Below, one piece after another: positions 19,640-64,000 of a DNA stretch of 64,000 bases. Location: positions 186,001-250,000 of the forward strand of contig JANBVO010000003.1 of assembly GCA_030052745.1 (NCBI GenBank), written 5' to 3'. The notes beneath the pieces were generated by a model. That model saw only the letters and a program-made list of their open reading frames with translations, made no database searches and was not told the origin of the DNA. The position numbers and the translations under genes were made by a program. Within the stretch, counting starts at the first letter, position 1. Every line of letters starts with the position of its first letter. Source of the stretch: Pleurostoma richardsiae. Its lineage: Eukaryota; Ascomycota; Sordariomycetes; Calosphaeriales; Pleurostomataceae.

Positions 19640-22180
19640 AATTCCGGTGAGGGCGGCTTGCGCTCCCTGCTGCTCCTTGGCGGGTGCATTCCTGGTCCAA
19701 TTGGGGAGGGAACCAGCCAGGGTGGGCTTGCGGCCTGCATTCACCGGGTTCGTTCTGTTCATCTCCTGGCTCGTTTGTGCCTGAGATGATGGGGGAAAGT
19801 CGACGACAGTTTGCTTCCTGCATACTCACCGGGTTCGTTTTGGTTCGTCGCCGGTTTCATTCCCTGTCTCGATGGCTGGGGACCAGCGATGGTGGCTTTG
19901 CGCCCTGCATTCACCGGGTTCGTTTCTGTTCGCCTCCTGGTTCAATTCTGTGTGGGATGGTGGGAGACTGTTGATCGCGCTTTGCTTCCTGCATACTCAC
20001 CGGGTTCGCTTGGTTCGTCGCCTAGTTCAGGGCCGTCCGGTGTGGTGGGAAGACGTCGATGGAGGCTTGCATCCTACATACTCACCGGGTTCATCCTATT
20101 CGTCGCCGGGCTCCTATCCTCTCTCGATGACTGGAGACTGGCGATCACGGTTTGCATCCTGCATATTCACCGGGTTCGTTCCTGTTCTCAATGGCTGGAG
20201 GCTCGTGATGGTGGCTTTCTTCCTACCTCGTTGCCGGGTTCAACTTTTAACCAAACTGCGGGAGGCCTACAACGGTGGCTGGCCTCTTGCATACTCGCCG
20301 GGCTCATCACATTCTTCGCCGGGTTCATTTCCGTTCTCGATGGTGGGAGGCTCCTGAAGGTAACCTGCATTTCCCCATCTTTGTCGGTGCCTAACTTTCT
20401 GTCTCGATGGCGGAAGGTCAGAGCCAGAGTGGCTTTCCTCCTGCATTTCGACTGGGTTCATTTTCTGGTCCCTAATGACCGGAGACTGGCGAAGACTGCT
20501 TGCCTCTTCCCTTCTGCCGGGTTGACATCTATTCTGGACGGCGGGAGGCCAGCAGCGAGCGTGGCTTGCTTCCTGCATACTCACCGGGCTCAGTCTGCCC
20601 GTCGCCCGGGTTGCCTCTGCTCTAATGGCTGGAGAGCAGTGCCGACGGCTTGCATGTCCCCTCGTTACCGGGTTCAATTTCTAGCTGGACGACAGCAGGC
20701 TGGCGAAGGCTGCTTTCTTCCTGCATACCCACGGGGTTCGCTCTGTTCTTCGCCGGATTCGTCTCTGTCCTCAACAGCCGGAATCTGCCGAAGGTGGCAC
20801 GCTTTGACCATCCTCGACGAGGCGCTTTCCTACGGGAGGAGGGTCAGGCTAGCTTGCTCTCCGGTCCTCATCGGGTTCAATCCCGTTCCTGATGGCGGGA
20901 AACGGTTGATGGTCGCTTTCCTGCCACCCACCTCCGTCTCCGGGTTCAGTTTCTGCCAGTGACGGTGGCTTGCTCTCCTGTTTGGCGGGCTCATTTCCAT
21001 CACAGTCAGCTGCACGGAGTTACACAGCGAGATGCAGTTTGCTCTTCTCTTCCGTGCAGGGTGCTCTTCTGTCTCGGTGGCTGAGATCGGCTGATGGCAA
21101 CTTGCTTCCCGCTTGTTGATCGGCTCCGATCTCTCCTCGCACAGACGCGGGAGACCGGCCGAGAGCTGACTTGTTTGTCTGCCGGGTCGAGGCGGGTGAG
21201 GGCGGCATGCTCTCCTGTTTGCCGGCTTCTTCCCTGCCTCGATTGGCGGGAGGTAGGTTGCCGTAGCCATCCCTATCACACCGGGTTCGCTTCTGTCGAC
21301 AATAGCCGAAGGCCGCAGAGGGCGGCTTGCTTTCCGCTTGTTTGCTGGGCTCAATCCTGCCTTGGATTGTGAGAGACCGACGGAGATGGCTTGCTTCTTG
21401 CATACTCACCAGGTTCATTCTATTCGTCGCCGTGTCCAGGATGGTGGAAGAGTTGATGGCAGTTTGCTTCGTGCATGCTCACCGGGTTCACTCTGTCGAT
21501 CGCCGGATTCATCTTGTTCTTTGCCCGTTTCAATCCATCTTCGGATGATGAGGGACAGATGAAAGTGGCTTGCATCCTACATACTCACCGGGTTCGTTTT
21601 ATTCATCGCCTGGTCCAATCCGTTCGTCGCCGTGCCCAGTTCTATCCGGGATGGTGGGGGAGAGTTGATGGCGGCTTGCTTCGTGCATACTCACCGGGTT
21701 CATTCTGTCGATCGCCGGGTTCAGCTTGTCCTTTGCTGCTTCCAACCTGCCTTCAGATGGTGAAGGACTGCAAAATGGTGGCTTGCTTCCTACAAACTCA
21801 CCGGGTTCATCCTACTCGTCGCCGGGTTCGATTCTGCCTCGATGACTGGATGCCGGCGACAGTGGCTTGCTTTCCCCTCCCTCGCCGGGTTCATCTCAGT
21901 CCCCAGTGGCCGGAAGCAGCTGAGGGTGGCTTTTCTCTCCCCTCCTTTCCGGGTTCGCATCACTGGTCATCCGTGATGATGGCTTGATATCCCACATTCA
22001 CCGGGTTCAATTCTGCCTTCATGACTGGTGACTATCGATGGCGGTTTGCTTCCTGCATACTCACCGGTTTCATTCTATTCGTTGCCGACTTCTCCTCTGT
22101 CCCAATGGCGGGCATCTGGCGAGGACCAGTTTGCTTCCTGCATCCTGACCGGAGTCAATTTCTGGCTCGATGACTTGAGG
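19640..22180 (+). repeat. Degenerate minisatellite-like array with CACCGGGTTC core
   Basis: About 30 diverged copies of a module stand in direct orientation. The best-conserved part is CTTCCTGCATACTCACCGGG followed by TTCATTCTG, an optional TCGTCGCCGGGTTC half-unit, then CTCGATGGCTGGAGACTGGC. Copy starts are spaced by 84-87 bp where both halves are present (for example near 19821, 19908, 19992, 20076 and 20162) and by 65-70 bp where the half-unit is missing (20223-20655). Spacings near 21470-21795 are about 105 bp. Copies at 21400-21800 resemble each other more than distant ones. Long plus-strand frames cross it (up to 383 codons at 19811-20962), but they read repeat-derived PAYSPGS-type peptides and are not convincing genes. 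Confidence 0.85.
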
Positions 22181-22502
22181 GACGAACGCCTCTCGAGGCG
22201 GTAGCCACTGAGGAGTCGGCATCCATCCTGACGCCAAGCAGGACGTGCCGCTCCCTGTTCAGCTGCCGGACACAGCATCTGCCAATCCTGATTTGGCCTT
22301 TCTGGTGACGATCCTGGGCCTGGACCTGGGCCTACAGAAAAGCCATGCCTCCGAGGTGGTTTCCCGCTTGGGTCATCCGATGGATCGACAACGGCCCGGG
22401 AGCGTCGATGTAAGCCATGCAGGCAAACACACGCCCGGAACCCAGCTGTAGCCGTCACGGTTGGCTATTCATCAACAATCCGGGCTAATTTGCCCAATGA
22501 TC

Positions 22503-22524
22503 GCCCGGAGCAAATGCTCCGGGC
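22503..22524. repeat. Perfect hairpin with 10-bp stem
   Basis: GCCCGGAGCA and TGCTCCGGGC are separated by AA. It lies just right of the CACCGGGTTC array, and a weaker pair GGGC/GCCC precedes it. It could mark an array or element boundary; no matching partner end was found by eye. Confidence 0.7.
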
Positions 22525-22989
22525 ATCAGCGGGCTGCATGATGCGCTGGCCATCTCCAACCATTCCGTCGTCTTGATCAGCAGTCAGCATCATCAGCGGC
22601 GCACGTCTCGTGCTCTTTTTGCACCTGTAGGCTGCTCTTCCTGGGTTGTTTGTGCAGCCAAAGGCTGGAGTCGGGGACCGCTCATGCAGCCGGTCAACGA
22701 TCGTCCGCCTGGCGGGACAGAGCGGACGCAGACGTGCAGCGCCTGGCAAACAGACTCGGGCAAACATGGACGGGACGGCCAGAGCGGGCGACGTCTTCCT
22801 CCAGCGCCACCGACGAGGTGCATGCTGACCGGCTTTCTCTCCCACCCTCTCCGCGACCTGCGGCTGCACGAGTCCCCGGATCTGGCAGGGCCAGCCGACA
22901 GGTTTCCGCTCCGGCCTAGACACGGCTGGCTGCGGAGCGCCCACCTGCGATGTGGTCTCGTTCCGGGCCGGGTGGGGAATCAATTCCCG

Positions 22990-23470
22990 GGCCGCCGACC
23001 TGCCTGCTTACTTTTTTGCTTGTTTGCTCGTCTGTTCTCTTCTTTGCCTGCATGCTCGCACGCTTACGTGTCCGTTTGCTCGGCTGTCTGTTCGTGTGTT
23101 TGCTTTCTTGCTTGATCGGCCGGCTTGGCTGATCGCTGTGGTCGCATCTCCGGCCCGGGCGGGGGATCGCTCCCGAGCTTCAAGGCTGCTCGTTTACTCG
23201 CTTGCCTGTTTGCTTGGATGTTTGCTACCTTGTTTGCTTGACCACTCGCTTGATTACTCGCTTGATCATTCGCTTGCTCGTTTGGCCACTGGCTTGTTTG
23301 CTCGCTTGATCTGCCTTCTCTGTAGATGCATACAGTCATGTTTGGGGTTGTACAGAGTCGCTCACGGGCTGAGAAGTTGTTTGCTTCCCTGGTTTTCTGT
23401 TTGCTCACTTGTTCGCTTGCTCGCTCGATCTCTCGCTCGATCTCTCGCTCGTTTGCTTGCTTGATCGGCC
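22990..23470 (+). repeat. Low-complexity TTTGCTTG/CTCGCTTG tract
   Basis: Short words TTTGCTTG, CTCGCTTG, TTGTTTGCTCG and CTCGATCT recur irregularly over almost 500 bp, most densely at 23190-23300 and 23395-23465. Both strands stay open through parts of it, giving Leu/Cys/Ala peptides on one strand and Glu/Gln/Ala/Asn peptides on the other, which is a composition effect. Confidence 0.7.
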
Positions 23471-23940
23471 CGCGTAAGTGTCCTATTCGTCCTTGACTGT
23501 CGGGCCGCGGAAATGTGACCTGTATCCTGGCGTCTCCATCACGTCCACCACAGCATGCATGTCCGGAGCAGGAGAGGCCTACCATTGACCGGTGAGCTCT
23601 ACCATGCTCTTCTCAGGTTTGTTTGCCTCTTGTCTGCGGGGGAAACGCCTCTCGGTCTGGTGACTGTAGGTACTGAGGAAGCGAGTGGTTCTAGCCCTTG
23701 AGCGGCGAGTGCTGCTCCTGCGGAGGTGCCACAGAGATCACCAGCCCATCCTCCTCTTTTCAGCCGCTCATAGCCGATCTGCGTCCGGGTGGCTGATAAG
23801 CTACGTCTACGTGTTCCGGGTGGCTTCCGCGGGTGTCGTCCGGAGCATCGACTCCGCATTCTTCCGTCCTCTACGCCGGGGAGTGCCCGGGTTGTGGTCT
23901 ACGTCCGGGTCGGGCTGGTGGTCTCTCCCATGCTGCCGCG

Positions 23941-24010
23941 CTGTTTGCTTCTCTGTTTGCTTCTCTGTTTGCTTCTCTGTTTGCTTCTCTGTTTGCTTCT
24001 CTGTTTGCTT
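23941..24010 (+). repeat. 12-bp tandem repeat, 5.8 copies
   Basis: CTGTTTGCTTCT repeats five times without error, then ten more bases follow. The unit length is a multiple of three, so all frames remain open: FASL or LLLC repeats on the plus strand and EKQT repeats on the minus strand. The unit shares the TTTGCTT word with the tract at 22990-23470, so the two probably have one origin. Confidence 0.95.
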
Positions 24011-24521
24011 GTTTGCTTCGCTTCCCTGTCTGTTTGCTTGCTCACTGCTCACATTCTTGCCTGTTTGCTTGATCGACGCGCTTGCATGCTTCACTACTCA
24101 CGATTCTCTGGCCGCGGGATGGATGACGTGGGAATCAGCCACTTCTCCGCCTCTGTGTATCAGATGTGATAGGGACAGAATGTTTGTCGTCGACCGGTGG
24201 ACGTGCTCCGTAAGCAGTATCCCGAGCGACATGGAAGGCCAGTGGGAAAGGCATGGCGAGGTACAGCCAGAAACGGCGAGGCTCCAGAGCCGGGTAACTG
24301 TACGCAATCTTGGTATAGAGGCACTGCCATTCAGAGAGTACTCGACACTACGATATCTCCCGTAACTCTTCGCGCTGGGTATCTCTCCGTCCTCCCCTCC
24401 ATGGTGCGCTGTCCATGCGCTTCAGAAGCTGGCATCAACGTGACACAGCATTTCTGCTCCCCAATGGAAGCAGCGATATCAAGACGCACGAGGTGACGGC
24501 ATGGCTGGCGATTGCTGCTCC

Positions 24522-51840: not shown

Positions 51841-54800
51841 ATGGCGACCATCCGGAGCTTGGATCACACCAAGTATGCGCTCATGCTCTTCCTCCGTCAC
51901 ATTCTGAGCTCGCGGCAGCTCGGCGTAGAATATCGCGGAAGCTAACCCGCGTTTCCGAGCAGATCCGACACGGAACTTGCGATCAACATCAAGAAGGCCA
52001 CGAACCCCGAGGAGACGGCACCCAAGCGCAAACATGTCCGCAGCTGCATCGTGTACACGTGGGACCACAAGTCCTCCCAGGCCTTCTGGGCAGGCATGAA
52101 AGTGTGCGTACAAAGCTCTGTCAACACCTCCCGCTGTGCCAGTTGCTTCCTGCCTCGGATACCTCGCGCGGAAGACCCTAGTGGCGCATTCCTTCCGAAT
52201 CGGCGGTCTGCATACTTGCCGCTATCGTTGATGGTCCTTCCGTTTTGACTACACATCCTGTATCTTGTCAGCGCAGTCACGAATCGGGAAGGGCTACCTG
52301 ATTTCTCATCCTAAGCCGAGAGTTCCTTCATACAATCCACGCTTTCTCCTCATCCTACCTCGCACAGGCGACTGACCTCCTCTGCAGCCAACCTATCCTC
52401 GCCGATGAAGTGCAGACGTTCAAGGCACTAATAACAATCCACAAAGTCCTCCAGGAGGGACACCCCATAACCCTCAGAGAGGCTATGGCCAACCGCGGCT
52501 GGATTGACAGCTTGAACCGTGGCATGTCTGGCGAGGGCATGCGAGGCTATGGACCGCTGATCCAAGAATACGTATACTTCCTACTCGCCAAGCTGTCCTT
52601 TCATCAACAGCATCCCGACTTCAATGGAACCTTTGAGTATGAAGAATACGTGTCTCTCAAAGCAATCAATGATCCGAATGAAGGCTATGAGGCTATCACA
52701 GACCTCATGATCTTGCAGGACAAGATCGACCGCTTTCAAAAGTTGATTTTCTCACATTTCCGCAGCGTGGGAAACAATGAGTGCAGAATATCCGCCCTCG
52801 TGCCACTTGTCCACGAGAGTTACGGCATCTACAAATTTATAACCAGCATGCTGCGTGCAATGCATTCCACCACAGGCGACACCGAAGCCTTAGAACCACT
52901 TCGTGAGCGCTATAATGCTCAGCACTACCGCTTGGTCAAGTTTTACTACGAGTGCTCCAATTTGCGATACCTGACCAGCCTCATCACAATCCCGAAACTT
53001 CCTCAAGATCCGCCAAATTTGCTGGCCGAGGACGACCAAGCACCTGCGTTGCCAGCCCGGCCGAAGCAGGAAATCGAGCGCCCGCCTACCCCGCCAGTAG
53101 CTCCCAAAACCGAAGAGCCAGACGAGATCTCCGAGTTCTGGAAGAGCGAGCTCGACCGCCAGAATCGCGAGTACGAAGAACAGCAGAGAGTCTTACAAGA
53201 GCGGCAGCAGCAACAAGCTCTGGCGCAGCAACAAGCGCAGCTGCAAGCTCAGCGAGACTTTGAGGAGCAACAGCGTAGGCTCGCCGAGCAGCAACAGCGT
53301 GAGCAAGAGGCGCTTATGGCGCAGCAGGCACAGTGGCAGACACAAGGCCGGCTCGCGGAACTCGAGCAGGAGAACCTCAACGCGCGGGCGCAGTATGAGC
53401 GAGACCAGCTCATGCTGCAACAGTATGATCAGCGAGTCAAGGCACTGGAGGGTGAGCTTCAGCAGCTTCAGAACAGTTATGGACAGCAGATCAACAGTAA
53501 AGACGACCAAATCCGAGCGCTTCAGGAGCAAGTGAATACTTGGCGGTCGAAGTATGAAGCCCTTGCGAAACTTTACTCGCAGCTGCGTCACGAACACCTC
53601 GACCTGCTCCAGAAGTTCAAGTCCGTGCAGCTGAAAGCTGCCTCTGCTCAAGAAGCCATCGACCGGCGGGAGAAGCTGGAGCGTGAAATCAAGACCAAGA
53701 ATTTGGAGCTTGCAGACATGATTCGCGAGCGCGACCGGGCCCTCCACGAGAAAGACCGGCTCCAGGGAGGCCAGAAGGATGAGGTCGAGAAACTGAAAAG
53801 AGAACTGCGGATGGCCAACGACCGGGCGGATAACCTGGAGCGGAGCAAAGGCAACGAGCTCTCCACGATGCTTGCGAAGTATAACCGCGAGATGGCGGAC
53901 CTCGAAGAGGCGCTCAGGACCAAGTCCAGAGCTCTTGAAGAGGCACAGGCCAAGCTCAAGGACGGGAGCTCCGATCTTGAGCAGCTGCTCCGAGAGAAAG
54001 AAGAGGAACTCGAGGTCTACAAGGCCGGCATGGATCAGACTCTGATCGAACTCAACGATTTGAAGCAGAACCAGGGTGCCACCGACCACGCTCTGGATGG
54101 GCAAATTGATGCGATCATCCTGTCCAACTTGGACAAGATCAACGACATCATCGATTCCGTCCTGCAGTCGGGTGTGCAGCGTGTCGACGACGCCTTGTAT
54201 GAACTTGACTCAACGATGCAAGCCGGTAACCAGAACGCGTCTCCATCCTATGTTCTCTCCCAAATCGAGAAGGCTTCCTCCAGCGCCATGGAATTTGCGA
54301 CCGCATTCAACAACTTCATCGCGGATGGGCCTAATGCTACTCATGCCGATTTGATCAAGGCTATCAACGTCTTCTCTTCTTCCATCGCAGACGTTTGTAA
54401 CAACACCAAGGGTCTTACTCGGCTGGCCACAGACGACAAGAAGACCGACTCGTTGATGAATGGAGCACGCCAGTCTGCGCAGGCCACGGTCAAATTCTTC
54501 CGAGGTCTCCAGAGCTTCCGTCTAGAGGGCATGGATCCCATCCAGAAGACCGACGTCGTCATCAATAGCAACAATGATGTCCAGATCAACCTGCAGAAGC
54601 TGAACAAGCTTGTCGAGACTTTCGCACCCGGCTTCGGCAAACTCGCCAACAAGGGAGACCTTGGCGAGATTGTCGACCAAGAACTCACCAAGGCCGCTGA
54701 TGCTATTGCCGCTGCTGCCGCACGATTAGCCAAACTCAAGAACAAGCCACGGGATGGCTACTCCACTTACGAGCTTAAGGTTCACGACTCGATCATAGAT

Positions 54801-55447
54801 GCCGCGACGGCCATCACGACAGCGATCGCACAACTGATCAAGGCAGCGACCGTCACCCAGCAGGAAATTGTCCAGGCAGGGCGTGGGTCATCCTCGAGAA
54901 CTGCGTTCTACAAAAAGAACAACCGCTGGACAGAGGGTCTCATATCGGCAGCCAAGGCGGTGGCCTCATCTACAAACACGCTCATCGAGACTGCAGACGG
55001 TGTTCTATCTAACCGGAACAGCCCCGAGCAGCTTATTGTAGCGTCGAACGACGTGGCAGCCTCGACTGCCCAACTCGTGGCGGCCAGTCGTGTCAAGGCC
55101 GGCTTCATGAGCAAGAGCCAGGAGAGCCTCGAGCAGGCCAGCAAGGCTGTTGGTGCTGCTTGCCGGTCTCTGGTCCGCCAGGTGCAGGCGATCATCAAAG
55201 ACCGGCTCGGAGAGGAGGAGCAGGTGGACTACTCAAAGCTTGGGGCCCACGAGTTCAAGGTTCGAGAGATGGAGCAGCAGGTACGTGATCCCAGCCATAC
55301 GTCAAACTCTTTCTTCTACGGGCGCAAGGGAACCAAAGCTAATGTTGTTACTTCCTACAGGTGGAAATCCTCCAGCTGGAGAACGCGCTCTCTGCCGCTC
55401 GGCAGAGACTGGGAGAGATGCGTAAGATCTCCTATCAGGAGGAGTAA
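51841..55447 (+). CDS. SLA2: SLA2/END4 endocytic actin adaptor, 1050 aa
   Basis: Exons 51841-51872, 51963-52103, 52388-55280 and 55361-55447 give 1050 residues. The first introns are 90 and 284 nt, the last 80 nt; the phases fit. The ANTH domain (about 1-285) begins SDTELAINIKKAT and includes CIVYTWDHKSSQAFWAGMK and ADEVQTFKALITIHKVLQEG. A Gln-rich coiled coil follows at about 305-600, and the talin-type I/LWEQ actin-binding module fills about 800-1050, ending LENALSAARQRLGEMRK. Sla2 couples clathrin-coated membrane to actin during endocytosis and hyphal growth. It is a conserved flank of ascomycete mating-type loci, and here it lies 6.8 kb from MAT1-2-1 with its 3' end facing the locus. The 284-nt intron is long for this window but has correct ends. 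Confidence 0.96.
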
Positions 55448-56504
55448 AGCACCACCCCCAAAGAGCGGGTGCATTGAGGGCGCCCCCCTTCGCATCCTCG
55501 CTTAGACGTCGATATCTTGGCGAACACGCCATACCTGTTTTCAGTGTCAGTCCGCCGTGGAGGAGATGAGGGCTGACACAGCAATATTCTGCATCGATGT
55601 GCCAAGGACGCCATTCTCCCTTACATTCGGATCCTTCTCAGCATGTATGGTCGGTCACACCGGCCCAGTGTGGACAGAGAGTTCTTTGTGTCTATCCCAG
55701 GCCACTCGGTCAAGAAACCACCCTAGATTGTCCTATATAGTTCAGATCCCCACCGATCGGAAAGTTGTTTGCTCCTCACCCACGTACAAAGAAAGCATCC
55801 CTTGCATGGAGGTGCGGAAGTGTGTGCAGCCCTCGTCCAATGGTCTCTCGAGAATCTGCAGCACAAGCACCTTGATGTGTCGATGCGGGGTCCTTTTTGG
55901 GGTTGTGGCCCCTCGGATGTGATTCGTGCGATGCGCCTGGACAGCCACATGGTTCTCGGCGATGCCTGTTTCACTCACCCGCACGAGGCGGGGCGACCGA
56001 CGGGAGACTTTGACTCATCCGTGTCTCTGTTAGTGCAAGACTTGCTTCACTTCATCAACAGACTTTAGTCATTCTTGTCGATAGCGCTTTCAGTGTTGCA
56101 ATCTTAATACGTCCCTGCGCAAGGTACGCAAGGTTGGCGAAGATGGATGAGTGACCAAACCTTACGGGCATTCATCGCCCAACGCGGAGGTACGTACCTA
56201 CACGGCCAGTGCGCTCTTCCGTTTTGAAGCGCCGCGGTTGGCAGCGACAGGTCTAACCCAGATAGACAGAGATCTGACGCGTCTAACCGGAACTGGCAGT
56301 CCAGGTGCCGCCAACGCTGCATTGGCCAGTGAGAGGGCTGCGCTTCACTTTACCTGAGCTCTGAACTCTGGACATCAGGTCGCGGTTGCCCTCACCTTTC
56401 GACTCGCACCTTCCTGCCTGTCGCTTCGACTTCAGCTTCAGGCCGACCTCAACGGTACAAAGGTACAAACCATCCGAAGTCTGGAAACCCTCCGGGAGCC
56501 CTAA

Positions 56505-57204: not shown

Positions 57205-58816
57205 ATGGTGATTCCTCGGGAGAGGGGCTTGCCGACAGTCGACCTGAAGTTTGATGGGATCTCATTCATTGGGCCTGATGGCAGGATTGACGCCAGCAAT
57301 GTCTCCCCCGCGCAGATGAATGTGATATTCACCTATCTGAAGCATGAGTACGGCGTGGTCAACATCTCGTACAGTGAACCTTTCCTCGTTATTTTTTGCG
57401 CACTGAAGATGGATATCCCGAACGAGAACGAACGTCCCACTTGCGTTGCCGGCCTGATCGCCATCTGGTGCGTGGCTGGCCAGAAATTCGAACAATACAT
57501 CGGCGCCTCGGGCCGTCAGGGCGAGATCAGAATCGACCAGAGGATGCTCAAGAAGCTCCAGAAGCGCAAAGTCCCGCCGGACGATTTCATCCTGTACCTG
57601 GCGAACCGCGTGTTCATCGACTGCGAGGCCCTCTCCTTCATGTGGGAGTCGCTGATCGTCGAGCTGCCCCGGGTCAATGCCAGGAAGTTCCAGGCCCGTC
57701 TCAGACGCCTTCCCCACAACATCAAGGACGCCCCCTTCACCCTGAGGTACTATAACGGCCCGCTCCCCAACACTATGAGGAGATATGACGCAACCGAGCC
57801 GCCGGTTGCTGTGGCGGCAAGCGTTGCGCCGAATGACACGGACAAGGCGCGGGTCAAGCGTACGTTCCCCTTTCATCATGAAAACCGAATCCCGACTCGT
57901 CGATTCTAACATGCGTACTGCTGGCTTAGCATTCCATCCTGGCTCCTTGATCACTTCCCTTGACATGGAGAGGAGAATACACAAATGTGCTTCGGTGGGC
58001 ATAGTCGTCAATAGAGGCCCTGAGAAGCGGCTCACCTCTTCTTGGCACTCCTGGACAGAATATAATTCAGATTTCCCGAGGATATTCGGTTGGCTGGACC
58101 CGCAGAGGCGGATTGTCTCCCGGGATTCGCAGGGGCCGGCGAACGGTAAGCCCGGCATCGCCGTTGGCATGGTGTGGGTACGGTACCGTGGGACCAACAC
58201 CGCCCTGCTGGACCTGGAAAATGGCATCCGTTTCGCGAACGTCTTCCCCAACCTGAACGCTCCGGCCAGGACCTTGATCGCCAGCAAAGACCAGGAGCTG
58301 GGCGACACGTACATGCTGGACAGCAACCACGCGGGCCTGCGGCAGGCCATGGGGTACGGCACGCGATTCGTCATCGCGCGCCCGGTCTGCGAGCCCGTCG
58401 CCCCAGGGACCCTGAACCCCATGTGCCTCTCCCACCTGGCCATCATCAGCGCGCGGCACGGCGCGTTCGCGACCGGGTCCTCGAGGCTCGCCTGCCACCC
58501 CTCGGTCCGCGAGGGCATCTCCGGCGCCGTCCTCCTGCGCAGCGGGGACGTCACCAGGAGCACGCAGACCCCCTCGCAGGTCATGCAGCGCGGCGAGGTC
58601 GCCGCCCAGGTGCAGTACGTGCATGGGCAGTACAAGTACAGGGCCTCGCCCGAGTACTACCTCGTCTTCGCGGACTTCTTCGACGGCATGATCCAGGAAG
58701 GCTGGGACATCTTCCAGCCTCAGGAGCAGGTCCTCAGCGGCTGGATGCTCGACGAGGTGAACCGGGAGGCCGAGGCGGACCAGGACACCGAGATGACCGA
58801 GGACGCCGAGGAATAG
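57205..58816 (+). CDS. Unknown 513-aa protein between SLA2 and MAT1-2-1
   Basis: Exons 57205-57859 and 57930-58816 join across a 70-nt intron (GTACGT, GCTTAG) in phase 1, giving 513 residues; the open frame upstream of 57205 has no ATG. The N-terminal half (TVDLKFDGISFIGPDGRID, FEQYIGASGRQGEIRID, LYLANRVFIDCEALSFMWE) looks like a compact mixed fold. The C-terminal half has ALLDLENGIRFANVFPNLN, LGDTYMLDSNHAGLRQAMGY and RHGAFATGSSRLACHP-SVREGISGAVLLRSGD. The GISGA block resembles the G-x-S-G nucleophile site of trypsin-like proteases, but I cannot see a convincing catalytic triad. The acidic tail is TEMTEDAEE. I recall fungal hypothetical proteins with similar C-terminal blocks, without a known function. 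No signal peptide or membrane segment is present. Codon use is GC-rich and ordinary, so it looks like a functioning gene. Confidence 0.78.
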
Positions 58817-60234
58817 GTGGCGCGCGGAGGACAAGCTATTGGGAGATGAGTTGCGGGGTGACATCAAAGGTTGAATCACTGGCAGACCCCGAGGAAAGGT
58901 ACACACCATGTACCTTACTAATTGTTTTTGTTTGGAGTTGCCATGACGGCAACCCGACCTTAGGTTAGGTATTTCGTCTTCAATGATAACTGTCTTTCCT
59001 TAACAGTGTCTCACCCAACGGCAACACCCTTGATGTCTTTCCTGTTTCTTTAGCCACCGACCGACCTGGCGGGGCCGGGGCGGGGAGGGGAAGCGGGGGC
59101 GGGGAGCGAGCCCACAAAATCCGTCGAATGCGGCTGAAGCCGATCGTGCACCACTAGACTAGCTTGGCGGGTCTGCAGTCTCTTTTGACGACAAGCCATG
59201 GCGTCTAAGCGGGCTGCGACGGCGGCGGCACTCCCACATCGCTTTTCTTTGTCCCTCCCACCCCTGGTCGTCGCCGGGGAGCGCACATGTGACATGTCTA
59301 CGGCCGCTGCTTGGACAGCTGACAGCTGACCGGGAGCCTGGGGCTGAGGGGGAGATTGCAAACGGAACAAGGGGGAGGACAAGAGGAGAAGAGGAGGCTT
59401 TTTCATGGGGGGGAAATATGTGACTGATCGATTTGTACTGTCGGTCTCTATCTATGATCCTTCCTTCCACTCATGCAGGGGAGAAGACGGCGGTGAAGCC
59501 ATCCTCCCACGCGCATGGGCGAAGTAGAACAGGTTGAGGCAAGTGCCTAGTACTGGGAGCTATGTTACACGACCACATGTGGATGGGAATCCTTCCTGCA
59601 ATCTCGTGTGTCTCCATGTCAACTGTTGATCCGTCACTTTTTAGGGGTGTTGGGGGTCTCCTGCCGTTGGTTGTCGTTCCGTTAATGAAAAGGGGGTGTG
59701 CCTGTGTGTGCTGCAAGGGGTGCCGTGGGGGGCCCTGTGGATGTTCGATTGGGGGAAAGCGAGAAGAGCGAGAGGCGGGGGAAGAGCGGGCAAGAGAGAG
59801 GGAGAGGGCCGCTCTCTTTGTTTGTCGAGGTTCCAGACTTTGCGCCTCTTTGCCGGCTGCGTTCCCTGTCCCTTCTTGGGGGTCTCGTCCTCCTCTAGCT
59901 GCATGGTGCCGGAGCGGGGATGGGTCGACTGGAAGGGCTGGACCCTGGTGAAGTTACTGGGGAATGTCGCCGTTGGCGTCAAACTGTTTGTCGAATAGAG
60001 AGTTAAGAGATCTTCAGGTCCATAAACTCCGCTGGGTATGTAAGTGGGTTTCAATTATGTCTGCTTCGTGACGACGTCTTGAGTTTGCCACACTAATCAT
60101 GTGCAGGAGGTCTCATATGCTTTCTCGATATCACCATTATTGTCCGCTTCGGACACTGGCTGCCTCACGCATCTCGAGTAAGTTCAGCATTAGGATGACT
60201 CGCCACGACCTGATGACGTTCTTGGTTTCTTGGG
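58817..60234. other. Spacer between the unknown gene and the MAT-linked genes
   Basis: No gene is supported. A minus-strand frame at 59641-60054 contains a charged stretch (MQLEEDETPKKGQGTQ and PAKRRKVWNLDKQRE) that could be a first-exon fragment with a nuclear-localisation-like patch. It lacks an upstream ATG in the full frame and has no evident partner exon. G-rich runs are frequent near 59060-59110 and 59690-59770. Confidence 0.45.
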
Positions 60235-60534
60235 CTATCTTGTATCTCGCAAGAAAAATAGTACCGCCACGTATTTGTCGTCTGTCATGTCTCTCTCTTT
60301 CTTGATACCTTGGCCTGATTTCGTCGCTCTCTCAGCTGAAGCTATCATATCATTCGTTTCACGGGGTCTCCGATGTTCAAGTTCCACCTTCGTGTACCAA
60401 TCAATTTCTCGCGGGGGGCCAATGCCATTTCTAGGGATACATGAATGATCTCCGCAAAGTTTCTTTGGCGGAAAGATCTTTATAAAGCTCGATGGTACGG
60501 AGTACTTGCTCAGTCCTGACTTCCCTCTCTCGTC
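60235..60534 (-). pseudogene. Start-less 99-codon open frame beside the MAT-linked gene
   Basis: On the minus strand this frame runs 99 codons without a stop but has no ATG in its first 60 codons. It reads protein-like: KKLCGDHSCIPRNGIGPPRE, IDWYTKVELEHRRPRETND, MIASAERATKSGQGIKKERD and MTDDKYVAVLFFLRD. It begins just after the 3' end of the MAT-linked gene on the same strand. It could be a downstream exon, a gene whose first exon is missed, a relic, or chance. I do not recognise a family. Confidence 0.25.
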
Positions 60535-60544
60535 TCATTTCCTA

Positions 60545-61596
60545 TCAACGGCCAATGTGACGCAAGTCCTCCTCCAATGTAGCGAGTACTTCAGGTGGAA
60601 TGTTTTGTTTGACAAGTTCAACCTTAAGAGCAATAATGCGGTGCAAAAACTGCAGTGTCTTGAGACGGGCTTGCTGGATGCTAACTGTGAACAAGTCAGA
60701 GATCATTACTAGCCATCATACAGGTGGAAGCTTGCCTTCGTGTTCCCAGTGGCTGTCATATCTGTCGTCGCCATGGAACAAGAGGAAGAAGTCGACTCCT
60801 CCAGTCTTAACCCTATGCCAGGCACGATTATTGGCTTCCGCATCCGCCGGTTTCATGGTCCGCACACGGCCGGCCAGATTCAAGGGAGTAATCTCGATCT
60901 GTTCCGTTTCTTCGTCTCCGTCATTCGTCAGACGTCCAAGAGCGATGATACCTTCCTGCGCCATCCGCATTTCAGCGATTCTATGAGCTGTTAGAGTCCC
61001 GGAAGATTGAACGTGGCAGGACATACTTACTCCATAGCAGTACTTCGCACCGCAGTCCGGAGAAACGCAGGCCACCAAGGAGAAGGAGTCTCGGTACCCC
61101 AGAGCTTGGCGGTAATTCGAATCAGAACCTTCAGGTACCGGTCTGCATCTCTCTTCGTCATGAGAAGTATCTCTTGCATCTTGTCCACCATGGCTGTGTG
61201 CGCAATCGCCCATTCACGAGCTCTGAAAGTGTATGTAAAGACCCCAATGCTTCGCATCTCCTGCGGGATTTCATCAGTAGTGTGATGTCCAGTGTCAGGG
61301 GAACTGGCATCCGCTGGAACTGAATCATTTGTGTTGCTGTCTTGAGGTTCGCGGCCAGCATTCTTTCTAGCCTCGGCATCGCGCTTTTCCTCCGCCGAAA
61401 CCGCGCAAAGGAACTCCTTCAAGATTTTCTCCGCTGTCTCGTAGGCGACCTGCTTGGGCTTAACATCTCCCTTGGAAACCACTTCCTGGTCAACGCTCTG
61501 GGTGTTTCCATCTCGAGCCGACAGAATGGCCAGGAGGGGAGCAACCTGGTCGGCGATGGACGCAGCCCCGAGGTTTGTGTTCGTAGGGTTGTTCAT
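60545..61596 (-). CDS. Unknown MAT1-2-linked protein, 317 aa, divergent from MAT1-2-1
   Basis: Exons 61596-61031, 60980-60722 and 60673-60545 give 317 residues. Introns are 50 nt (GTAAGT, TCATAG) and 48 nt (GTATGA, ATCCAG, CTCTGAC branch-like). The third exon is not forced: read-through would stop at 276 residues (60716), and a GC-AG variant of intron two is also possible, but the exon encodes a clean helix, LKTLQFLHRIIALKVELVKQ. The ATG at 61596 gives MNNPTNTNLGAASIADQ; upstream frame lacks ATG. Residues 45-70 look helical (ETAEKILKEFLCAVSAEEKR); 80-110 are polar and disordered. A core at 119-185 reads SIGVFTYTFRAREWAIAHTA, MVDKMQEILLMTKRDADRY and LWGTETPSPWWPAF. No HMG or alpha-box is seen. 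It is probably a MAT1-2 accessory gene whose family I cannot name. Confidence 0.72.
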
Positions 61597-62254
61597 GGTG
61601 TCATTTCTGGAGAATGAATAATATGATGGAGGAGACCAGTACCGGTGCTGATTTCGCGTCAAAGGAATAGACGGATGCTATGATGAAACTGGTGCTGTCT
61701 TGGATGCTGAACGATAATGTAGCCCAAGACCAAGACTGCACATCTGGTCATGGGCTGAAAACCGAAGATGTAAACAGATCAGTGAGTGATGGGAAGGGCG
61801 GCTGCCTGTTGCATTGGGACGAAATTAAATATTATTTGTGGCATTCAAAATAGTTTATTCAGAGGTCAATATTGAATAAACAAAGGGCCTCTGGTGGGCT
61901 GTACTCCTCTGCTAGGCTGCCGCTCACCTCGCACTCACCTCACTCACCACCCTCAATTTTCGCACATTGACCCCCTCCGTTTTTTCTACCACTACCTCCA
62001 GCCCTTTTCTTTCTCTCCTATCCCTGCCTCCCACCCACAAATACCTTCACCTCCTCTCCCCCTCCAACCTCGACACAATCACAATCCTTTGCCCCCTTCT
62101 ATTCAAACCTCGCGCAGCCCTCCAATTCCCCGAACTCGACCTCCAAACTCACAGACCCTAATACTCGTCAGACCTCGAACACAAAGCATCACTCCAGCAA
62201 GATTACTCCAGCAAGACTTCACCTAGGCTAAGGTGAAGCCATCTACTACTCACC
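61597..62254. promoter_or_regulatory. Shared divergent promoter of MAT1-2-1 and its neighbour
   Basis: The two start codons face away from each other across 658 bp. An AT-rich centre (61825-61885, with AAATTAAATATTATTTG and TCAATATTGAATAAACAAAG) is flanked on the MAT1-2-1 side by 250 bp of CT-rich leader-like sequence. ATTGAATAAACAAAG contains AACAAAG, an HMG-box recognition core, so autoregulation by MAT1-2-1 is conceivable. Confidence 0.5.
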
Positions 62255-63363
62255 ATGGCATCCCAGCTCGTTAACACCATGATGATCCCGAACTCTATCT
62301 GGAATGTTGCAGACTTCAACGCCATCTACGCTGATCTGGAGGTTCAGCTCCATGGATTCAACCAAATCATGGCCATCAAGGGCGAATTGTACTGGTCCTT
62401 GGATCAGGGTGCTCTTGAGGAATTGGAGCGCCGCCTTAAGTAAGTTGACATTTCTACAATGAACGGGATATAATTTCTGATTATGACTTTAGGCACCGCT
62501 TTGGCGCTCAGGAGAAGATCTTGATGGTCCGAGATGGCAATCACCTCTCTCGTTACCTCATCGGTCCGTCTCGAGTCGTGCTCAACGCTCCTGGAGCCAA
62601 GCTGGTCCCAAGCACCAATGAGAACCTCTCAGTTCTGTACTTTGACTACGACACCATTCTCAATGAGCAGAAGAAGAAAGAGCAGAAAATGCCTGCTAAG
62701 ATTCCTCGTCCTCCCAATGCCTACATCTTGTACCGCGCCCATCACCAGAAGATCCTCAAGGTGCAAAATCCTGCTCTTACAAACATCGCAATCTGTAAGT
62801 CGAGCTTAGTCCATTTATTTAGGCTCTCACTAATACGCTCAGCGCGAAAACTGGGTATTCAGTGGCAGGGAGAAACGGATGATATTCGTCAGTTCTGGAA
62901 GAACAAGGCCGATGCGGTGAAGGCAGAGCTTCTCGAGAAGTACCCCAATTACAAGTACACGCCTCGCAAGGCCGGCCAGATCAAGCATCGCAAGAAAGCA
63001 AAGAAGGCCGACACTGCCAAGCAGCCGCTCTCGGGTTCCATCGCAGGGTCTCATTTCATGGAAGTCCCCATGGACGAAGAAACTCTTCGTCTGTTCAAGG
63101 CTGCTGAGGAATCAGCTCTCGGTGAAGACATGCCAGAGTATGATCAGACGGATCAGCTTATGATTGGCTCTGTGGGGACTCACACCAACGCTGAGCAGCA
63201 GGCAGACTTCGAAGCCATTGCTCAATACATCGACCCCGGCACCGTCTGTGTCAGCCCAGCTGAAACTACAACTGCCAGTGCATTCAGCGATTCCCTTTCT
63301 GAGGACTGGTTCGAGAGCACCGAGGCTATCCTGGATGCCTCTCAGTTCCGTCGGACATATTAG
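62255..63363 (+). CDS. MAT1-2-1: MAT1-2-1 mating-type HMG-box transcription factor, 335 aa
   Basis: Exons 62255-62439, 62493-62794 and 62843-63363 give 335 residues; introns are 53 and 48 nt. The HMG box spans about 131-205: KIPRPPNAYILYRAHHQK opens it, GIQWQGETDDIRQFWKNKAD is helix two, and LLEKYPNYKYTPRKAGQ follows, with a basic KHRKKAKK tail. The second intron interrupts the Ser163 codon (T, then CG), the position conserved in ascomycete MAT1-2-1 genes; this alone identifies the gene. The 130-residue N-terminus is longer than the box leader in many relatives and includes NSIWNVADFNAIYADL. MAT1-2-1 controls pheromone/receptor expression and mating identity in MAT1-2 strains. Without splicing of intron two the HMG box is broken, so intron retention would switch the protein off. 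Confidence 0.96.
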
Positions 63364-64000
63364 ATGCCTTTCGTTCGACTTTACATCGAAGGTTCTGTCA
63401 CACTACTTGTATACTATCGATCAACAACTCCCTGTGCCGGACATATTCACGCCAGAAGCTGTCCTTAATCAAGATCGCGGACAGCCACAAGTCAGCTTTA
63501 GGTGCTTGCTCACTCACCTGGTCAACCCAAGTCCGATTTGCGATCCTACGATATCACCTCACTTCCTGCGTTCTCCAGTCGTCCTGACTGTCGTTAGACG
63601 TCTTCGCCTGATTTTCCCTAATATGCCTTCGGCGTGAAGAGACAGCCAGGATCCGATCTACGCAGCACACAGTCACGACGGCTATGAACCACATGTACTA
63701 CTAGAATCTCGATCCCTCTCGACTTGAGCAAGAGGGAACTGCCGGGAGGCCTCGGCTCTTGGCCAAATCCTATAGGATCAGAGTCATCTTCGGTGTTGGT
63801 TCCAGGGCCATAAATCCTGGCAAGATCGACTATTGGCAAAGACGGCAGGCTGCCCGACGCAAAAACCGCTTCTTTCTTCGCTCTATCAATCCCTCGGCGG
63901 GCGTGGAACTGGCCTTAAGTGATCGGAACCGCAATACGCTCTCTCTCTTGGGGTTTGTCCGGCGGACGAAAAGCTCAACAAAAAGAGTTCGACGACATCT
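63364..64000. other. 3' flank of MAT1-2-1, no gene seen to the window edge
   Basis: No coding region is supported. A minus-strand open frame (63618-63839) has no recognisable motif. The expected MAT flank on this side, APN2, must lie further right if it is present. Confidence 0.45.

Follow-up and report, generated by a model that had tools for sequence, protein, structure and literature searches.

The MAT locus of Pleurostoma richardsiae raises the question of whether the gene that is transcribed head-to-head with MAT1-2-1, here called X, is part of the mating-type system or only stands beside it. An earlier note on this DNA had interpreted X as an accessory MAT1-2 gene under joint control with MAT1-2-1, which our analysis supports in part. 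The window analysed here comprises 64,000 nucleotides (bases 186001-250000 of contig C60), and the searches were extended to the whole genome (39.43 Mb, 136 contigs). Read from left to right, the locus consists of SLA2, a hypothetical gene, X (minus strand) and MAT1-2-1 (plus strand), with APN2 just past the window edge.

The main open frame of SLA2, the left flank of the MAT locus, extends from stop to stop over 52302..55505 on the plus strand. Within 52302-55400 it harbours an ANTH domain (PF07651) and an I/LWEQ domain (PF01608), and it is very close to the ANTH domain of the solved structure 5oo7, which we take to be that of Chaetomium thermophilum. Between SLA2 and X, the hypothetical gene is found as two overlapping open frames on the plus strand (57205..58816, ends approximate), neither of which matched a Pfam family (E up to 10). 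MAT1-2-1 (62255..63363, plus strand) encodes 335 aa and contains introns at 62440-62492 and 62795-62842, the second of which splits the HMG box (PF00505, 42.5 bits). Beyond the window, APN2 was recognised by its Exo_endo_phos domain and a PA-RING protein gene by a domain match; two further genes just outside are presumably COX13 and APC5. The locus has the standard MAT1-2 arrangement with SLA2 and APN2 as flanks, and X lies within it, beside MAT1-2-1 and between these flanks.

The start codon of X is the ATG at 61596 on the minus strand and that of MAT1-2-1 is the ATG at 62255 on the plus strand, which confirms the head-to-head arrangement, 658 bp apart, described in the earlier note. In our conservative model X covers 60716..61596 (minus strand) and encodes 276 aa, with exons at 61596-61031 and 60980-60716 and a TGA stop at 60718-60716. 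Exon 2 is joined in frame after intron 1 (60981..61030, minus strand, 50 nt), which has a GTAAGT donor, a CTAAC branch site and a TAG acceptor. In dinucleotide-preserving shuffles of 59951-62250, a one-intron gene of at least 828 nt with such splice signals was never obtained (0 of 1000), and any one-intron gene with these signals and coding stretches of 120 nt or more on both sides of the intron was obtained in 5 of 1000; the splice signals had been selected with the intron already known. The length of the open frame by itself is weak evidence: when 59951-63400 was shuffled 300 times, a frame of 216 codons arose in 10 cases.

Codon use was scored in segments of 129 nt, for which the reference means were 0.172 in coding segments (n=111) and -0.031 in non-coding segments (n=1212). 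The four segments of exon 1 scored 0.226, 0.346, 0.016 and 0.168, and the two of exon 2 scored 0.189 and 0.114. The normal codon use claimed previously was therefore recovered in all but one of the four segments of exon 1 and in both of exon 2, whereas exon 3 and the remaining exon-1 segment were ambiguous, the latter because 31% of non-coding segments reach its score of 0.016. With a cruder codon score, the correct frame was the best of six in both exon 1 and exon 2, with a narrow margin in exon 2 (0.15 vs 0.14 for a frame on the opposite strand). X is a real gene, intact and protein-coding across exons 1 and 2, and the structure of these two exons is beyond chance.

The earlier description of X as a three-exon gene of 317 residues was confirmed for exons 1 and 2 and for intron 1, but not for exon 3 and the total length. 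The open frame stops after 276 codons at the in-frame TGA (60718-60716), and the 317-aa model requires the removal of 60721-60674 as a 48-nt intron, thereby excising this stop. The putative intron has a weak donor (GTATGA) and a CTGAC branch site. Splicing at the AG closest to this branch site (60685) would remove only 37 nt and disrupt the frame, which is preserved with the AG at 60674. The possible exon 3 (60545..60673, minus strand; 43 codons including the stop) has a codon score of 0.039, which puts it at the 17th percentile of the 111 coding segments, while 22% of the 1212 non-coding ones score at least as high, and with the cruder score it is beaten by a plus-strand frame. Its GC content (0.465) and GC3 (0.44) are below those of exons 1 and 2 (0.543 each and 0.58), and its GC resembles that of the intergenic DNA at 60000-60500 (0.46-0.47). 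Exon 3 is therefore doubtful and may be 3' untranslated sequence, and we use 276 aa as the conservative length of X.

Nothing in the protein was recognised by profile searches. No family in Pfam (24736 models, E up to 10) was matched by the 317-aa protein or by the exon-1 frame, a negative that has to be read with the HMMER filters in mind, which lose most matches above E about 0.1. The library included MAT1-1-2 (PF17043), the alpha box (PF04769) and HMG, and the result agrees with the previous reading of X as a protein without alpha-box, HMG or other motif. Several relationships were rejected. A MAT1-1-2 homologue is not indicated, since PF17043 was absent from X and from the genome (the control genomes had no match too) and X lacks the PPF motif, which is described as a feature of MAT1-1-2 (PMC13097639). 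X was also rejected as an HMG protein or MAT1-1-3, as PF00505 was absent from it, and as a relative of a solved structure, for which we obtained a single chance match (E 0.75). When its own genome was searched, X gave only one match besides its own two pieces (E 0.086); it is a single-copy gene there, with no paralogue recognised. The predicted protein looks soluble and acidic (pI 5.3 for 276 aa, 5.7 for 317 aa), and a single-sequence structure model of exon 1 was uninformative (mean pLDDT 42.1).

To judge the mating type of the strain, we used the same profile searches on the whole genome. The alpha-box profile (PF04769) gave no match, and none of the 14 control genomes, all prokaryotes, matched it either. 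Because no control genome matched, this negative is weak and does not show absence. The HMG profile gave 14 matches in the genome by the same method, including both halves of the MAT1-2-1 box, and none of them in X. Since MAT1-2-1 was found and no alpha-box match was, the strain is most simply, and probably, a heterothallic MAT1-2 strain. A search of 59000-64000 for mating-type switching repeats found just two imperfect pairs, a short direct one and an inverted one. Two of the HMG-box frames in the genome, on the small contigs C120 (53090-53293) and C129 (13207-13410), are identical in length (149 aa) and in score (45.1 bits) and possibly represent a recent duplication.

The accessory idea would be ordinary even if right, because a second domain-less gene beside MAT1-2-1 is well known in Sordariomycetes. 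The names MAT1-2-9 and, earlier, MAT1-2-3 denote one and the same gene. In F. oxysporum the MAT1-2 idiomorph is reported to be 3.8 kb long and to contain MAT1-2-1 and MAT1-2-9, the latter described as having no conserved domains (PMC13097639), and an apparent MAT1-2-9 homologue is reported beside the HMG gene in Clonostachys (PMC13401452). By description, these genes resemble X in that each is a single additional gene next to MAT1-2-1 in a short idiomorph. For F. neocosmosporiellum, MAT1-2-3 is described as divergent from MAT1-2-1 (PMC6568001); it shares this orientation with X, unlike the gene of its close relatives. Second MAT1-2 genes that can be likened to X by place are also described in Ophiocordyceps (MAT1-2-2, a protein of unknown function; PMC10153710), Villosiclava virens (MAT1-2-8; PMC7344243), Beauveria bassiana (MAT1-2-8; PMC5134283) and Calonectria (MAT1-2-13; PMC9190971). 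According to a review, the numbered genes MAT1-2-2 to MAT1-2-11 often have no known domains, accessory MAT genes are typically not conserved past the genus or family, and only some are even partly characterised (PMC6562746). On this comparison X probably belongs with the loose accessory MAT1-2 class, which is defined by place and not by homology.

Our preferred reading, which we consider probable, is that X is an accessory gene of the MAT1-2 idiomorph that encodes a small, soluble and domain-less protein of about 276 aa, is divergent from MAT1-2-1, is switched on together with it in sexual development and has a modulating role. Candidate control sites in the spacer would then switch on both X and MAT1-2-1 during sexual development. 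MAT1-2-1, as the HMG regulator, would do the main work of setting the mating type, and X would modulate MAT1-2-1 or a later step of fruiting-body development, being helpful rather than essential. Whether the second gene acts as a tuner of MAT1-2-1 could conveniently be asked in a MAT1-2 idiomorph that cleanly comprises two divergent genes. It is reported that MAT1-2-3 knockouts of F. graminearum form normal perithecia (PMC11708053), and this dispensability is a warning against assigning a strong role to X. For Huntiella omanensis, truncation of MAT1-2-7 is reported to deregulate sexual pathways (PMC9602353). A bolder version, in which X founds a MAT1-2-restricted family unrelated to all numbered MAT1-2 genes and shares with MAT1-2-1 a single bidirectional promoter that keeps the two in step, seems to us unlikely. 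If it were true, the mating-type switch protein and an unknown partner would always be made together.

The spacer between the two start codons (61597..62254, 658 bp) is a candidate bidirectional promoter. It contains the forkhead-like motif RYAAACA at 61770 and 61876 and the HMG-like motif AACAAAG at 61879. Two RYAAACA sites were observed where 0.31 were expected, and 17 of 500 shuffles had as many; the single AACAAAG was equalled in 94 of 500. As seven motifs were tried, neither result is significant. In F. graminearum, sites of the forkhead protein PNA1 are described upstream of MAT genes including MAT1-2-3 (PMC11708053). The Fusarium PNA1 motif has CAAACA, whereas both sites beside X read TAAACA. 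We take the forkhead-like motif as a lead and no more. At the X end of the spacer, the minus strand also carries a three-codon upstream frame (ATG ACA CCA TGA, 61593-61604), the stop of which overlaps the start codon of X.

Whether X lies within the idiomorph decides between the accessory reading and the view of X as an ordinary gene specific to its lineage, which would sit just beyond the idiomorph or across its border, occur in full or in part in both mating types and be adjacent to MAT1-2-1 only incidentally. If both mating types carry X, it is no more than a neighbour. Base composition bears on this point. GC is 0.54-0.67 at 58.5-60.0 kb, drops from 0.60 in the 250-bp interval starting at 59750 to 0.47 in that starting at 60000, and to the right of 60.0 kb, through X and MAT1-2-1, remains within 0.46-0.54. 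The GC3 of X exons 1 and 2 (0.58) and of MAT1-2-1 (0.63) compares with 0.67 in SLA2, 0.78-0.85 in the hypothetical gene and 0.58 in APN2. The step near 60.0 kb therefore groups X with MAT1-2-1 rather than with the gene to its left, which is suggestive of a position inside the idiomorph without proving it, and it counts against incidental adjacency, as the composition of X is like that of MAT1-2-1 and unlike the left flank. In many species APN2 lies outside the idiomorph. The argument is one-sided, because the GC3 of APN2 is as low as that of X; on the APN2 side GC does not rise at any obvious border, and this lends the incidental view some weight. So does the hypothetical gene that already stands between SLA2 and X, as well as the report that MAT1-2-2 of Magnaporthe oryzae shares partial homology with MAT1-1-3 of the opposite mating type (PMC3583454). 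Taken with the GC step, we regard incidental adjacency as doubtful.

It is less likely still that X derives from a MAT1-1 gene by unequal recombination; it would then be either a MAT1-1-1 that lacks the alpha box, like the one in Grosmannia clavigera, or a copy of MAT1-1-2, like those in Valsa and Diaporthe. PF04769 gave no match to X, and an alpha-box-less MAT1-1-1 copy would give none either; because we know of no Pfam model for MAT1-1-1 outside the alpha box, such a form stays among the possible origins of X. The truncated MAT1-1-1 of G. clavigera is described as lying upstream of MAT1-2-1, as X does (PMC7344243, PMC3583454), and was likewise an extra, at first unrecognised frame; a truncated MAT1-1-1 is also reported from a MAT1-2 strain of Cordyceps cicadae (PMC5577849). 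However, the truncated genes of G. clavigera and its relatives are described as intronless (PMC3583454), and X has at least one intron, a strong one. MAT1-1-2 homologues are reported in the MAT1-2 idiomorphs of Valsa and Diaporthe (PMC5386874) and are, like X, an extra MAT1-2 gene, but neither PF17043, an HMG box nor the PPF motif was found in X, and the genome had no PF17043 match (nor did the controls). A decaying relic is further disfavoured by the exons and splice sites of X, which are intact. Finally, the open frame could be non-functional or mis-modelled, for example with another start or 3' end. Exon 3 is indeed doubtful, long frames do arise by chance in this DNA (216 codons in 10 of 300 shuffles) and a plus-strand frame in exon 2 scores almost equally; set against the one-intron structure, absent from all 1000 shuffles, and the codon use that backs exons 1 and 2, this explanation appears very improbable.

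A few observations concern the assembly and the rest of the window. The 5.8S rRNA was not found in the assembly by model, DNA or primer site, and the rDNA may be missing from it. None of seven published primers fits, the best matches carrying 4 to 7 mismatches, with the 4 located in the conserved HMG box. The matches of an isocitrate lyase exon reached 313.5 bits for 5e9h, 299.7 bits for 5e9f/5e9g and 283.8 bits for 1dqu, which, together with the SLA2 match, points to a Sordariomycete as the likely source. Elsewhere in the window, imperfect tandem repeats were observed at 19708-20179 (units of 85-170 nt), 21435-21720 (106 nt), 23229-23466 (12-24 nt) and 23941-24029 (12 nt), and the plus strand of this region (19708-24029) has long open frames of low complexity.
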